Source: Gammaproteobacteria bacterium (GTDB taxonomy: Bacteria; Pseudomonadota; Gammaproteobacteria; Ga0077536). Taken from it: a stretch of DNA of 64,000 nucleotides. The notes beneath the pieces are model-generated. The model was not told the origin of the DNA. It ran no database searches and saw only the letters and a list, made by a program, of their open reading frames with translations. The DNA is taken from NCBI GenBank assembly GCA_021773835.1, contig JAJFJQ010000008.1, positions 62,001-126,000 on the forward strand. The letters are read 5' to 3'. Positions within the stretch are counted from its first letter, which is position 1. Each line of letters starts with the position of its first letter. The translations under genes were made by a program, and so were the position numbers. Below are positions 52,545-57,441 of this stretch, in pieces.

Positions 52545-53687
52545 ATGTCTTTGACACCTGAACAACGACAAATCCGCGACGCGGCGCGCGCATTTGCGGA
52601 TAAAGCGATACGCCCGTACGCCGCTGCCTGGGACCGCGCAGGCAACACGCCGCGAGAGACCTACCGCGCCATGGCCGAGATTGGCCTGATGGGCGTGACC
52701 ATCGACCCCCGCTATGGCGGAACTGGCGCAGATTTTGTCGCCTACGCATTGGCGATTGAGGAGATCGCAGCCGCCGATGGCGGGATCTCAAATGTCATGG
52801 CTGCGAATAACTCGCCGGTCGCCGTCGCGTTACAAGACCTCGGCAGCGATTGGCAAAAAACAAACTATCTGACGAAACTCACCTCGGGTGAATGGATTGG
52901 CTGTATCCAGCTCACCGAACCACATACCGGGTCGGATGCCGCAGCGATAACCACGCAAGCCGTGCGCGATGGCGACGACTATGTCATCGACGGCCGCAAA
53001 GCCTTCGTCACCGGTGGTTCGACCGCCGATCTTGCGATGATCATTGCCGTGACCGATAGCGCCGCAGGCAAGCGTGGTATTACTGCATTTATCACGCCGA
53101 CCGATAATGCTGCTTATGAAGTCGTGCGCAAGGAATCAAAGCTCGGTCATCGAACCAACGACACCTGCGAGATCCGCTTAAACCGAATGCGTGTCCCGGC
53201 CCGCGATGTCCTCGGGGAGCCCGGACACGGCCTTAGAATAGCCCTGGAAAATCTATCACTCGGTCGGATCGGCGTTGCAGCACAAGCGACTGGTGGTGCG
53301 CGCGCAGCATTAAAAGCGGCACTGGCTTACGCTAAAGAGCGCGAGACGTTTGGAAAACCAATCGACCAACATCAGGCCATCGCGTTTAAGCTCGCTGAGA
53401 TGGCAACGCAGATAGAAGCGGCGAGACAACTCTATTTACACGCAGCTCGCATGAAAGACTTAGATTTTGAGTGCATCCGCGAGGCATCTATGGCAAAACT
53501 GTTTGCCTCAGAGATGGCCGAACGCGTCGCCTCTCAGGCGATCCAAATCCACGGCGGCTACGGCTATCTCAGTGATTATCCAGTGGAAAAAATCTATCGC
53601 GATGTGCGTGTGTACCAAATTTATGAAGGAACTTCAGAGGTTCAAAAAATTCTGATTTCAAGGTTATTAAACGACCTCGACATATAA
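52545..53687 (+). CDS. acyl-CoA dehydrogenase
   Basis: 380 residues, full-length flavoprotein of the ACAD family: GCIQLTEPHTGSDAAAI, AFVTGGSTAD, FGKPIDQHQAIAFKLAEMA and the C-terminal QIHGGYGYLSDYPVEKIYRD. It introduces a 2,3 double bond into an acyl-CoA with ETF as acceptor. The catalytic Glu is expected in the YEGTSEVQ segment. Last gene of the probable racemase-dehydrogenase unit; followed by the putative structured RNA region. Confidence 0.95.
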   Translation: MSLTPEQRQIRDAARAFADKAIRPYAAAWDRAGNTPRETYRAMAEIGLMGVTIDPRYGGTGADFVAYALAIEEIAAADGGISNVMAANNSPVAVALQDLGSDWQKTNYLTKLTSGEWIGCIQLTEPHTGSDAAAITTQAVRDGDDYVIDGRKAFVTGGSTADLAMIIAVTDSAAGKRGITAFITPTDNAAYEVVRKESKLGHRTNDTCEIRLNRMRVPARDVLGEPGHGLRIALENLSLGRIGVAAQATGGARAALKAALAYAKERETFGKPIDQHQAIAFKLAEMATQIEAARQLYLHAARMKDLDFECIREASMAKLFASEMAERVASQAIQIHGGYGYLSDYPVEKIYRDVRVYQIYEGTSEVQKILISRLLNDLDI

Positions 53688-53714
53688 GAAAACAGTCAAA
53701 GCGATTGCCCGGCG

Positions 53715-53744
53715 TTACCGATTTTTTCTACTACACTTTAACTA
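53715..53744 (+). promoter_or_regulatory. weak promoter candidate upstream of the structured RNA
   Basis: TTACCG (53715-53720) and TAACTA (53739-53744) separated by 18 bases, giving a start near 53751. Both boxes depart from consensus; reported only because it is correctly placed before the folded region. Confidence 0.25.
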
Positions 53745-53749
53745 TGCGC

Positions 53750-53945
53750 TTCCCACTGCGATCGCATAAGGGAAAGGAGAGGCGCAAAGCCGATGGGCCG
53801 CGCGCATCTTGCGCCGACCCGAACTGGCAAACGTTCAGCCGCCCAAGTGGCGGGTTGTCAAACAACACTGCCAGGTGACGAACATCGCCTTTGCGCACGC
53901 GCTAGAAGATGGACAAGCAAACCCCGCAATAGCGGGGTTTGTTAT
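53750..53945 (+). ncRNA. probable structured RNA ending in a rho-independent-type terminator
   Basis: A 393-base gap between genes holds a region with strong folding potential on the plus strand. GCGCAAAGCCGATG (53782-53795) pairs with CATCGCCTTTGCGC (53883-53896) over 14 positions with one mismatch, closing an arm-bearing interior: CTGGCA/TGCCAG (53824-53829, 53869-53874), CCGCC/GGCGG (53839-53843, 53849-53853) and GTTG/CAAC (53854-53866). An alternative, exclusive pairing joins GGCGCAA (53781-53787) with TTGCGCC (53809-53815), so a switch is conceivable. The terminator hairpin follows at 53919. It matches none of 6S, tmRNA, RNase P, SRP or the common riboswitches I can recall. A cis-regulator of the downstream GFA gene or a free small RNA are both possible. 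Confidence 0.4.
53919..53940 (+). terminator. rho-independent-type terminator
   Basis: AAACCCCGC, AATA, GCGGGGTTT: a perfect 9-base-pair stem with a four-base loop, closing A-T pairs that supply a short T tract in either direction. It lies downstream of the structured region and about 140 bases before the GFA gene. Confidence 0.6.
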
Positions 53946-54079
53946 ATCTGCGACGGTGATTCGAAGCGCATCAATGTTACACGAAATAGAGGAGCTACAG
54001 CGCACTCGTCGGTGACGGTAGAATTGGACTCACCACGGTTGCGAAGTAAGACGAAACAAACGTAGTACGGGAGAAAGCG

Positions 54080-54493
54080 ATGCCAGCCAAGACCGTAACC
54101 GGTGGTTGTTTTTGCGGCGCGGTTCAATTTGAGATGGACCTACCCACTTTGTTCTGCGTCCATTGTCACTGCTCAATGTGTCGGCGCCCACATGGTGCGA
54201 GTTTTGTCACATGGTGTGGCGTTCCGCCAGAGCAGATGCGGATCACGGCGGGTGAGCACGACCTGGTGAACTTCAAGAGTTCAAAACTTGGATCGCGAAA
54301 CTTCTGCCGTCATTGCGGCAGTCAAATGTTCTGTCAGACACACGCCGAGTACATCGATATCGCGTTGGCCAGCCTGCACGATAAGATCGACCGCGAACCG
54401 GAAGCGCATTACTACTATGACTCCAGGGCCGACTGGACCCAAGTTAATGACGACTTGCCAAAATTCGGTGATGACGGTTCCGAGGCCGCTTAG
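54080..54493 (+). CDS. GFA-family (glutathione-dependent formaldehyde-activating-like) protein
   Basis: 137 residues with the zinc-binding Cys pattern GGCFCGAVQF, CVHCHCSMCRRPHGASF and FCRHCGSQMF. The family (S-hydroxymethylglutathione synthase-like fold, Mss4-like) binds one or two zinc ions; most members have unknown targets. GGGAGAAAG lies before the ATG. Convergent with the large acyl-activating gene. Confidence 0.92.
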   Translation: MPAKTVTGGCFCGAVQFEMDLPTLFCVHCHCSMCRRPHGASFVTWCGVPPEQMRITAGEHDLVNFKSSKLGSRNFCRHCGSQMFCQTHAEYIDIALASLHDKIDREPEAHYYYDSRADWTQVNDDLPKFGDDGSEAA

Positions 54494-54591: not shown

Positions 54592-57441
54592 CTATTGAGG
54601 TTTAGTGTCCACGACATTCGTCTCATGTGCCAGATCAGGTTCTCCTGAATGCGCAAGGATAAACGCGCGTGCACGATCTCTAAGTTCGAGCGACGCAGAC
54701 CATTCACTCGGGTGCTGATTTACTCGCATCGGCTCCCCGATTGTCACTTTGATCTTGTTGCGACGGGGATACCAGGAGTGGGCGCGTAATATTGAACGCG
54801 TACCATGGATCGCGATTGGAACGAGGCTAGCATCAGCGGCGATTGCAGTTGTAAACGCGCCCATATGGAATGGCAGTAATCCAGGCATCCGTTTAAAGGT
54901 CCCTTCCGGGAAAACGAGTAGCGGACTCGCTTCACTTACGGCTGCCGCCGCATCGCGCATTTGCGCTATGCCTTCGGCGCCATCAAAACGTTCGATAAAT
55001 CGAACGCCGAGCCGCAATAAAGGTCGACGCAACAACCACGATCCCTCAAGCTCACCTTTTACCAGGAATTCAACCGGGTTCGGCAATATCGACAACAACA
55101 ACGGACCATCCAAATAGCTTTGATGATTGGCAACGATGACGCATCGATGTCCCATTGCAGGCAGTTGCCCTTCGACACGCACGGGACAGGCCGTTAACCA
55201 CGAAAGAACGCGGATCATATATCGTAAACTAGACCACAACGCGGAACGTGGCAGCGGCGACATCGCGAGCACCCACGCACAGATCCCTGTCAGTGAAAAT
55301 GTGACCCAGGCATACAGAGCAAACGCTGTCTCGCTGAGTGCCCGCAGGCCACGGCGAAATTGCGGCACGACCCCCGCCAGGGCGAGTCGTGCAATTTGTA
55401 TCCAGAGGGCTGCTTCTGCCTGATCAAGACGGCCGGCTTCGTACAATTGTCGGCTCGCTGCCCGACGAATTTTACCGCTCGATGTTTTCAATACGGTGTT
55501 CGGTGATACCAATACAACATCGTCCGGCGGCGCAGTCACCACATCGGTTGCAATTTCGTTGATTGCGCTCAGCAGCCGCTCACGTGCCTCGGGTTGCTGC
55601 TTTCGCGTTTCTGCCAACACCACCAGACGCTCGGTTCCGGTTACGGGATCCGGCGATCCAAATACGGCGACACAGCCGGCGCGGATACCATCGAGTTCAC
55701 CGATCAGCGCTTCTAATTCAGTGGGATAAATGTTGCGCCCCGCACGGATGATCAAATCCTTGCTGCGCCCGGTTATGAACAGCTCTCCGGCTGTGATATA
55801 GGCCAGATCGCCCGTTTCCAGCCAACCGTTTCTGATCAGTTCTCCAGTTTTTTCGGGGTTGCGATAATAGCCGGACGTTGCTGAGGGACCACGAAATTGC
55901 AACCGCCCCTCGCGCCGCTCAGGGAGTTCACGCTCAGCAGAATCTACAATACGTATTTCGTGCTTCGGCAATGGTAGGCCACAGCTGACGACCTCCAAGC
56001 GATGGTGTTCCGGCGTATTGTCACTAACAGGCTCCGCCCGCCCTTCACGCGCAAGAACCTCACGATCGATCGTATCGACCAGCGGATCGCGCCCGAGCGG
56101 AGAAAACGTCAAACCGACTGAACATTCCGCCAAACCATAGACCGGCAGCATTGTTGTTCGTTTAAATCCGTAGTTGGCGAAACGATCGCAAAATCCACGC
56201 ATTGTCGCAGCACTTATCGCTTCAGCGCCATTCGCAACGATGCGCCATCGACTCAGGTCGAGGCCTTCAATTTCCTTATCGTCAATCCGTCGTACACAAA
56301 GATCAAAGGCAAAATTCGGTGCGGCGGAGATGGTTCCGCCGTAGCGATGGATGGCCCATAGCCAGCGCTGCGGCCGGCTCAGGAAACTCAGCGGCGACAT
56401 AATTACTAACCGAGGCGCGTGGTAGATACTACCCAACCAACCGCCGATCAGTCCCATGTCATGATAGAGAGGCAGCCAACTAACAAACACGTCGTTCGAT
56501 CTTACCTGCAAGCCATAGCCGTCGGCGCGAATGTTGGCGAGCAAATTTGCATGCGTTAGCACGACGCCTTTCGGATCGCCGGTGCTACCGGATGTATATT
56601 GAAGAAAGCCAATATCATCGGCCCGGCGGCTAACGATCTCACCAGCCACACTCAATGCGCTTAGTTGATCAACCGTCGCGATATAGCGTAGCGAGTCGAC
56701 TTGGGAGGTGAGTAAATGGGCAACCGTTTTCGCATCTTCCTGCGTGATCAACATAGTTGCCCGGCAGTTAATAAGAATTGCGCTTTGGCGACGCAGGTGA
56801 TCTTCAAGCTGTGTGCGTCGTACTGGAGGATAGATCGGTACTGGAATGCCGCCAGCGAGCACAACGGCACTAAAGGCAAAAAAATAGTCGGGACCCGTGG
56901 GCAGCATGAGTGCCACCGCCTCCCCTGGCATCAGACCGTGGCGTTGCAGGCCACCAGCGACAGCCACCGCACCTTCCCATAGATCGCCATAGGTGATGAT
57001 CTGCCCATCGGTGTAGTCGTCGTAAAACTGAATGTGCGGGCGCTCGGGATGTTGTTCGACGTGCCAACGCAACATGTCGGTCAGTGTTTCCGCGGTATCC
57101 GGTGCGGGAATCGCGGCACTTGTGCCGACATCGATAGTTTCAACCGACAGTGCCATGGCCTTCGCGCCACCAGATTTTATCAGCGCACGCAGGACATCTC
57201 GTGGCGTCTCGGCGGTGGCCATCATCTTTTCTGACAAGCTGACGTCAAAGTTGCGTTCAATTCTGGCCATCAGCTCGACCCGTCCAAGACTGTCAAGCCC
57301 GAGGTCGCGGTCGAATGCGCTATCCAAGCGGGCAGTTGAGAAGGTACTGTCATTTGGGTGCAGCTCGCGTGTAACGGCACCGACGAGATCGAGCAGCTCG
57401 CTTGCGACAACATTGGGATCGGTAGTGGACAAACTCTTCAT
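54592..57441 (-). CDS. three-domain protein: acyl carrier - fatty acyl-AMP ligase - PlsC-type acyltransferase
   Basis: 949 residues. (1) Residues 1-90, acyl carrier domain with phosphopantetheine Ser51 in LGLDSLGRVEL. (2) Residues 115-680, adenylation enzyme: LQYTSGSTGDPKGVV (280-294), LPLYHDMGLIGG, GLAECSVGLT, LETGDLAYI and SSGKIRR with Lys657; a FAAL-type layout that makes acyl-AMP. (3) Residues 690-905, acyltransferase after two hydrophobic segments (about 700-730): NHQSYLDG (HX4D, 773-778) and FPEGT (844-848) of the PlsC family. Thus it should activate a fatty acid, load it on its own carrier domain and transfer it to a lipid acceptor, at the membrane. The ATG at 57441 is the frame's first good start. 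Confidence 0.92.
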   Translation of the reverse strand: MKSLSTTDPNVVASELLDLVGAVTRELHPNDSTFSTARLDSAFDRDLGLDSLGRVELMARIERNFDVSLSEKMMATAETPRDVLRALIKSGGAKAMALSVETIDVGTSAAIPAPDTAETLTDMLRWHVEQHPERPHIQFYDDYTDGQIITYGDLWEGAVAVAGGLQRHGLMPGEAVALMLPTGPDYFFAFSAVVLAGGIPVPIYPPVRRTQLEDHLRRQSAILINCRATMLITQEDAKTVAHLLTSQVDSLRYIATVDQLSALSVAGEIVSRRADDIGFLQYTSGSTGDPKGVVLTHANLLANIRADGYGLQVRSNDVFVSWLPLYHDMGLIGGWLGSIYHAPRLVIMSPLSFLSRPQRWLWAIHRYGGTISAAPNFAFDLCVRRIDDKEIEGLDLSRWRIVANGAEAISAATMRGFCDRFANYGFKRTTMLPVYGLAECSVGLTFSPLGRDPLVDTIDREVLAREGRAEPVSDNTPEHHRLEVVSCGLPLPKHEIRIVDSAERELPERREGRLQFRGPSATSGYYRNPEKTGELIRNGWLETGDLAYITAGELFITGRSKDLIIRAGRNIYPTELEALIGELDGIRAGCVAVFGSPDPVTGTERLVVLAETRKQQPEARERLLSAINEIATDVVTAPPDDVVLVSPNTVLKTSSGKIRRAASRQLYEAGRLDQAEAALWIQIARLALAGVVPQFRRGLRALSETAFALYAWVTFSLTGICAWVLAMSPLPRSALWSSLRYMIRVLSWLTACPVRVEGQLPAMGHRCVIVANHQSYLDGPLLLSILPNPVEFLVKGELEGSWLLRRPLLRLGVRFIERFDGAEGIAQMRDAAAAVSEASPLLVFPEGTFKRMPGLLPFHMGAFTTAIAADASLVPIAIHGTRSILRAHSWYPRRNKIKVTIGEPMRVNQHPSEWSASLELRDRARAFILAHSGEPDLAHETNVVDTKPQ

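Follow-up and report, generated by a model that had tools for sequence, protein, structure and literature searches.

A covarying structured RNA family in an uncultured gammaproteobacterial lineage

Described RNAs and the locus

Stand-alone RNAs with invariant junctions have elsewhere proved to bind important proteins or ligands. Close in kind to the locus described here is 6S RNA (RF00013), which has a gene of its own in gammaproteobacteria, is structured, and measures about 190 nt, and so is RsmY (RF00195), a stand-alone small RNA with a similar GC-rich terminator. The bacterial Y RNA (YrlA) works with the TROVE/Ro protein Rsr. Three further candidates come from PMC8632094, in the passages of that source that deal with them. 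The HRC-28-1 motif is a multi-stem noncoding RNA candidate, found mostly in Polynucleobacter, that may be a 3'-UTR element and for which a riboswitch was judged unlikely from its orientation relative to the neighboring genes, while the riboswitch candidates icd-II and ldh2 form three-stem junctions, with conserved junction bases in ldh2 (PMC8632094).

Our locus lies at positions 53744-53943 of the window, by which we mean the whole stretch of 64,000 nucleotides analyzed, and it is one of seven homologous loci, namely, that of the window's own genome (G000) and those of G001, G012, G018, G028, G032, and G033. Scanning the window against Rfam gave none of 4227 families at gathering score, and of the 14 matches listed across the seven loci, none reached gathering, in line with the initial annotation, which had found no known family to match. 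The locus had no RF00013 match, even up to an E value of 10, and a separate 6S gene is present elsewhere in the same genome (G000:C21:574469-574654), 6S RNA being found in 31 of the 36 genomes of the family; 6S RNA was thus rejected. RsmY and other Rsm small RNAs were rejected as well, since the scores were far under the 57-bit gathering threshold of RF00195: the locus reached only 20.9 bits, and the seven loci together gave eight weak matches (16.9 to 22.0 bits), four of which covered only the model end, that is, its terminator part, with one of the other four on the opposite strand. No genome of the family (0/36) encoded a TROVE protein (PF05731) over the cut-off, the one sub-threshold match being in G019, a noncarrier, which led us to reject a Y RNA.

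Set side by side by description, not by sequence, the window RNA and HRC-28-1, as far as the cited part of the source describes it, are both multi-stem, narrowly distributed, and closed by a terminator-like last stem, but HRC-28-1 occurs mostly in Polynucleobacter (PMC8632094). Likewise, in the portion of that work concerned with them, ldh2 almost always precedes a single type of gene, and a link to icd is described for icd-II (PMC8632094), whereas the window RNA has no constant neighbor. A description of the window RNA was not found in the open-licence PubMed Central literature. Rfam release 15 does not contain this RNA, so that the locus adds a family that is conserved, supported by covariation, and found in an uncultured gammaproteobacterial lineage.

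Architecture and comparative support for the fold

The RNA would be transcribed from its own promoter and end at an intrinsic terminator, with a 5' hairpin preceding a core in which P1, P2, and P3 are predicted to meet at a three-way junction (Table 1). The P1 arms, GCGCAAAGCCGATG and CATCGCCTTTGCGC, are 93% complementary over 14 positions with 87 nt between them, the sole mismatch being a C·C at 53790/53888. The long stem with its single mismatch, the inner stems, and the rho-independent hairpin about 20 bases further on were all found as the initial annotation had described them.

Table 1. Features of the RNA locus, in window coordinates
Feature	Position	Strand	Sequence or remark	Basis
-10-like box	53732..53737	+	TACACT (homologs: TAGACT in five, TAGAAT in one)	motif comparison
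Putative transcript	53744..53943	+	about 200 nt	-10-like box and terminator
P0, 5' hairpin	53750..53774	+	variable	fold, covariation
P1, 5' strand	53782..53795	+	GCGCAAAG-C-CGATG, mismatch at C53790	inverted repeat, covariation
P2 hairpin	53796..53819	+	length variable	fold, covariation
J2/3 junction	53820..53823	+	CGAA; CGGA in G012	alignment of homologs
P3, 5' strand	53824..53828	+	CTGGC	one both-side change (CCGGC/GCCGG in G033)
P4 and weak P5	53829..53869	+	hairpins within P3 (P4, 53839-53853; P5, 53856-53867)	fold, covariation
P3, 3' strand	53870..53874	+	GCCAG	alignment of homologs
J3/1 junction	53875..53882	+	GTGACGAA, same in 7/7	alignment of homologs
P1, 3' strand	53883..53896	+	CATCG-C-CTTTGCGC	inverted repeat
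Intrinsic terminator hairpin	53918..53941	+	CAAACCCCGC-AATA-GCGGGGTTTG, 21 nt after P1	hairpin in 7/7
Alternative fold	53789..53889	+	53789-53791/53826-53828 and 53874-53878/53885-53889	pairs possible in 7/7

At all seven loci, the -10-like box lies 46 to 51 nt from the core. A -35-like hexamer (TTGCGA, TTGCAA, or TTGCGC) with a 16-nt spacer accompanies it at five of them and is not recognizable in the window and G001. The T tract of the window terminator is weak (TTATAT), and a simple consensus scan of 53500-54200 picked up neither promoter nor terminator. The weakest helix is P5, for which only 66.7% of the cells in the structure-fitted alignment pair. No reading frame is common to the homologs: with frames counted from the ends of the core, all six are interrupted by a stop in one or more of the seven sequences, and a coding sequence was ruled out.

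Evidence for the structure came from the comparison of the seven homologs, the seven sequences on which all comparative statistics rest. On a MAFFT alignment that was not fitted to structure, 21 of 46 pairs showed changes on both sides with pairing kept, and 94.0% of the cells paired. Neither 500 alignments with shuffled letters nor six slid versions came up to this result, although the test is tilted toward the scored structure, which RNAalifold had chosen from that very alignment. A tree-aware null, the idea of which follows the cited part of PMC11234323 and which did not use R-scape itself, gave a mean of 6.4 pairs and 62.5% of cells paired, and none of 1,000 simulations was as high on either measure. 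For core P1-P4 alone, 14 of 29 pairs were changed on both sides, compared to 3.9 under the null (0/1000 as high).

Helix by helix, the number of null runs per 1,000 with at least as many both-side pairs was 0 for P0, in which five of six pairs carried such changes, 38 for P1, 0 for P2, 500 for P3, 7 for P4, 358 for the terminator, and 0 for core P1-P4, while for the share of cells paired the corresponding numbers were 8, 0, 0, 0, 3, 0, and 0. Covariation of the long stem in homologs, which the initial annotation had named as its own test, was thus observed for P1. Support for P3 consists of one compensatory change, not significant on the first measure, together with 100% pairing. On the structure-fitted alignment, the consensus fold energy was -26.1, compared to a column-shuffled mean of -9.25 (z -6.27, 0/200), and the count of further pair types was not above that of shuffles (278/500 reaching it).

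This comparative signal is far stronger than that of single-sequence folding. The stretch 53750-53945 folded at -82.8 kcal/mol (z -4.00, none of 200 shuffles as low), but much of this is due to the terminator, since the z score of the window transcript fell from -3.18 with it to only -1.58 without it (9/150 shuffles as low). Terminator-less z scores ranged from -2.17 to +0.51 across the seven homologs, those of the core alone were -2.05 in the window (6/200 as low) and +0.42 in G001, and the reverse strand of the window also scored low (z -3.80). Energy folding gave the inner P1 a probability of 0.0 to 0.04 in G001, G018, and G032, and the probability of P3 exceeded 0.34 in none of the seven. 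For G012, the minimum was 6.5 kcal/mol below the junction fold. Energy folding alone thus does not favor the junction, and single-sequence folding is insufficient to settle whether the described structured RNA is real; the comparative evidence does settle this.

The initial annotation had further read a competition between GGCGCAA (53781-53787) and TTGCGCC (53809-53815) as the sign of a switch. Both segments are present, and in the window their duplex rivals the stem (-13.8 versus -13.2 kcal/mol), but in the six homologs the counterpart reaches only -3.5 to -8.3 kcal/mol versus -7.2 to -13.3 kcal/mol for the stem. The pairing is not conserved beyond the window, and this switch was rejected; what stands of the original reading is that the RNA is structured and has a terminator hairpin.

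A different second fold can be drawn in all seven homologs, pairing GCC (53789-53791) with GGC (53826-53828) and GGTGA (53874-53878) with TCGCC (53885-53889). With each fold enforced, it and the P1/P3 fold lay 1.0 to 4.2 kcal/mol apart, with now one and now the other lower; it was the minimum in G001 and G018, and both folds were well above the minimum in G012. The RNA could truly have two states, or the second fold could simply follow from the presence of short segments that are complementary. None of the seven homologs provided covariation supporting the second fold, and since the alternative pairs hardly vary, covariation cannot separate the two. We consider it unlikely that the family is a class of two-state regulatory RNAs alternating between the junction (P1 plus P3) and a state with GCC/GGC around P2 plus a GGUGA-CGAACA-UCGCC hairpin, with a partner or ligand selecting in trans, although such a class would explain the invariant C·C mismatch, each of whose Cs finds a pairing partner in the alternative state.

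Inspection by eye gave some minor observations on the peripheral parts of the RNA. A small pseudoknot of P0 may form in four homologs, through CCCA/TGGG in L003, L007, and L020 and through CTCA/TGAG in L006; the window, G001, and G012 show no such pairing. In the P2 region, GCGTACGATC is common to L003, L007, and L020, and GTACG is found in L006; the stretch thus occurs in two genera and is lacking in the window. The terminator-like AAACCCCGC-NNNN-GCGGGGTTT also occurs in L004 and L005, which belong to two RNA-less genomes from other families of the class, and it therefore looks like a common terminator and not a mark of the RNA.

Gene neighborhood and possible mode of action

In the window, the RNA is followed by a co-oriented GFA gene (PF04828, E value of 9.4e-23) that begins at 54080, 138 nt past the terminator and close to the 140 bases first estimated. 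The other downstream genes encode LolA_like (G001), DUF1329 (G033), SRAP (G018 and G032, the latter typed through 67% identity to that of G018), a GGDEF response regulator (G028), and ApbA (G012), giving six Pfam-level kinds at seven loci, of which LolA_like and DUF1329 are perhaps related. They are convergent with the RNA in G001, G033, G018, and G032 and co-oriented with it in the window, G012, and G028. Upstream, an acyl-CoA dehydrogenase gene is found in the window and G001 (83% identical) and an isocitrate-dehydrogenase-like gene in G018 and, by eye, G032, while G033 has DUF364, G012 a short-chain dehydrogenase, and G028 an open reading frame. These upstream genes vary in direction as well as in kind, being divergent in G018, G033, and, by eye, G032.

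Two side observations concern the neighbors themselves. The G033 DUF1329 gene (L003, 3-1337) also gives a weak LolA_like match, and the convergent neighbors of G033 and G001 (the LolA_like gene, L002, 3-488) may thus be distantly related, despite the different genera. In the window, GFA is convergent with a gene at 54592-57441 on the minus strand for a 949-amino-acid protein with a phosphopantetheine site and AMP-binding and acyltransferase domains (PF00550, PF00501, and PF01553).

The tie to GFA implied by the initial annotation did not hold, since not one of the six homologs has GFA as its next downstream gene. One kind of co-oriented gene would be expected behind a cis-acting riboswitch or attenuator, and the orientation and 138-nt distance of GFA in the window, together with the co-oriented next genes in G012 and G028, fit this as far as they go. 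However, GFA, ApbA, and the GGDEF response regulator, which make up the co-oriented set, have no relation to one another, the next gene is convergent at the other four loci, and the competing pairing proposed for the switch is not conserved. On the kind and direction of the downstream gene at the seven loci, we rejected a GFA riboswitch and hold cis control of whatever gene follows to be highly improbable. Still harder to credit is that the gene upstream carries the RNA as a structured element of its 3'-UTR. The acyl-CoA dehydrogenase gene shared by the window and G001, with the RNA close behind it, speaks for such an element, but the upstream neighbor is divergent in G018, G033, and, by eye, G032, and a -10-like box stands at near-constant spacing in all seven.

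A trans-acting small RNA, in turn, is recognized by its own terminator and by the lack of a constant neighbor, and at these loci the terminator hairpin is present in 7/7 and the neighbors differ. Together with the 46- to 51-nt spacing, the terminator hairpin and the changing neighbors point to an independent gene acting in trans. Our preferred explanation, which we consider reasonably probable, is that the locus encodes, in a gene of its own, a structured small RNA about 200 nt long that would act in trans, its core binding a protein or another cellular partner. The junction linkers, nearly invariant on one side and invariant on the other, and the conserved closing pairs suggest a putative binding site more than a mere scaffold. 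We would guess that the partner, perhaps a protein, might be bound via a shift between the junction fold and the second fold.

Many bacterial small RNAs of such size act by base pairing. An RNA of this kind, in which the invariant junction segment GTGACGAAC would be a seed for target mRNAs and the folds would only present it, also fits an apparently independent gene that has a terminator hairpin and a stretch that is identical in all homologs and mostly unpaired. We regard this as possible but doubtful, given that conservation spans both junction strands and the closing pairs and that the structure covaries. In addition, the tail of the window RNA is T-poor, which is atypical of Hfq-bound small RNAs.

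Distribution of the RNA

Of the 36 genomes examined from the window's family, 7 carry the RNA, counting that of the window, and these represent four genera (G000 and G001; G018 and G032; G028 and G033; G012). Six of the carriers are among the 23 family genomes with a completeness of 90% or more and a contamination of 5% or less. With a covariance model, all seven scored at least 82.7 bits, with one strong match per genome, and every other match in the family scored at most 26.4 bits. BLAST with the G032 copy returned exactly the same seven genomes at E values up to 0.1, two further weak places in G033 and G028 being chance-like. A motif search matched seven genomes, six of them truly; the two matches in G031 look unrelated, and the G028 copy, one base off the search motif, was missed. 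The carriers G018, G032, and G012 were first detected through the motif GGTGACGAACATCG, G001 and G033 through BLAST, and G028 through the model, so that the invariance of GGTGACGAACATCG is partly by construction, three of the seven having been found with the motif itself.

A fixed-motif scan that covered 84,980 species with one genome apiece, and from which records of the genome containing the window may be missing, returned 34 stretches, of which six (L030, L034, L038, L040, L047, and L048; 82.2 to 119.8 bits) were true members, all of them loci already among the seven carriers. The other 28 were rejected, with at most 27.8 bits or no match up to an E value of 1; many of them have one conserved Caulobacterales context in common and resemble coding sequence. 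Weak model matches (at most 29.0 bits) were also dropped. Among those whose matched stretch was read (L021, L061, L063, L064, and L065), GTGACGAACAT is absent; L063 came nearest, differing in the last base. No further members were found in 369 genomes of the class and 398 of the phylum with at most nine candidates per genome scored, a depth at which relatives could be missed, and viral contigs, plasmids, and phages gave no match.

Close relatives differ in whether they carry the RNA. Two genomes of the window's genus, G002 and G003, lack both the RNA and a close match to the acyl-CoA dehydrogenase, which says little since they are 57% and 82% complete. In G023 and G029, of G018's genus, the SRAP gene and an isocitrate/isopropylmalate-dehydrogenase-like gene apparently adjoin, by eye, with the RNA missing between them, so that its absence from this locus is real. 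The best reading is that of a lineage-restricted, patchy RNA family.

Patchy presence at different loci across genera, with the gene junction apparently kept in G023 and G029 without the RNA, is also what a piece of a small mobile element or of a repeat family folding by chance could leave behind. This origin is very unlikely in view of the single strong match in each of the seven genomes, the absence of direct repeats of at least 10 nt at the four loci tested, the compensatory change across genera, and the lack of matches in viral contigs, plasmids, and phages noted above. For a stand-alone RNA gene, presence and absence among close relatives make gene-content comparison a practical route to the partner.

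One database record deserves mention. L038 (CAMATU010000082.1), titled as a Klebsiella pneumoniae metagenome-assembled genome, carries the same RNA as G032:C82, which is placed in the window's family; the organism name of the record looks wrong.
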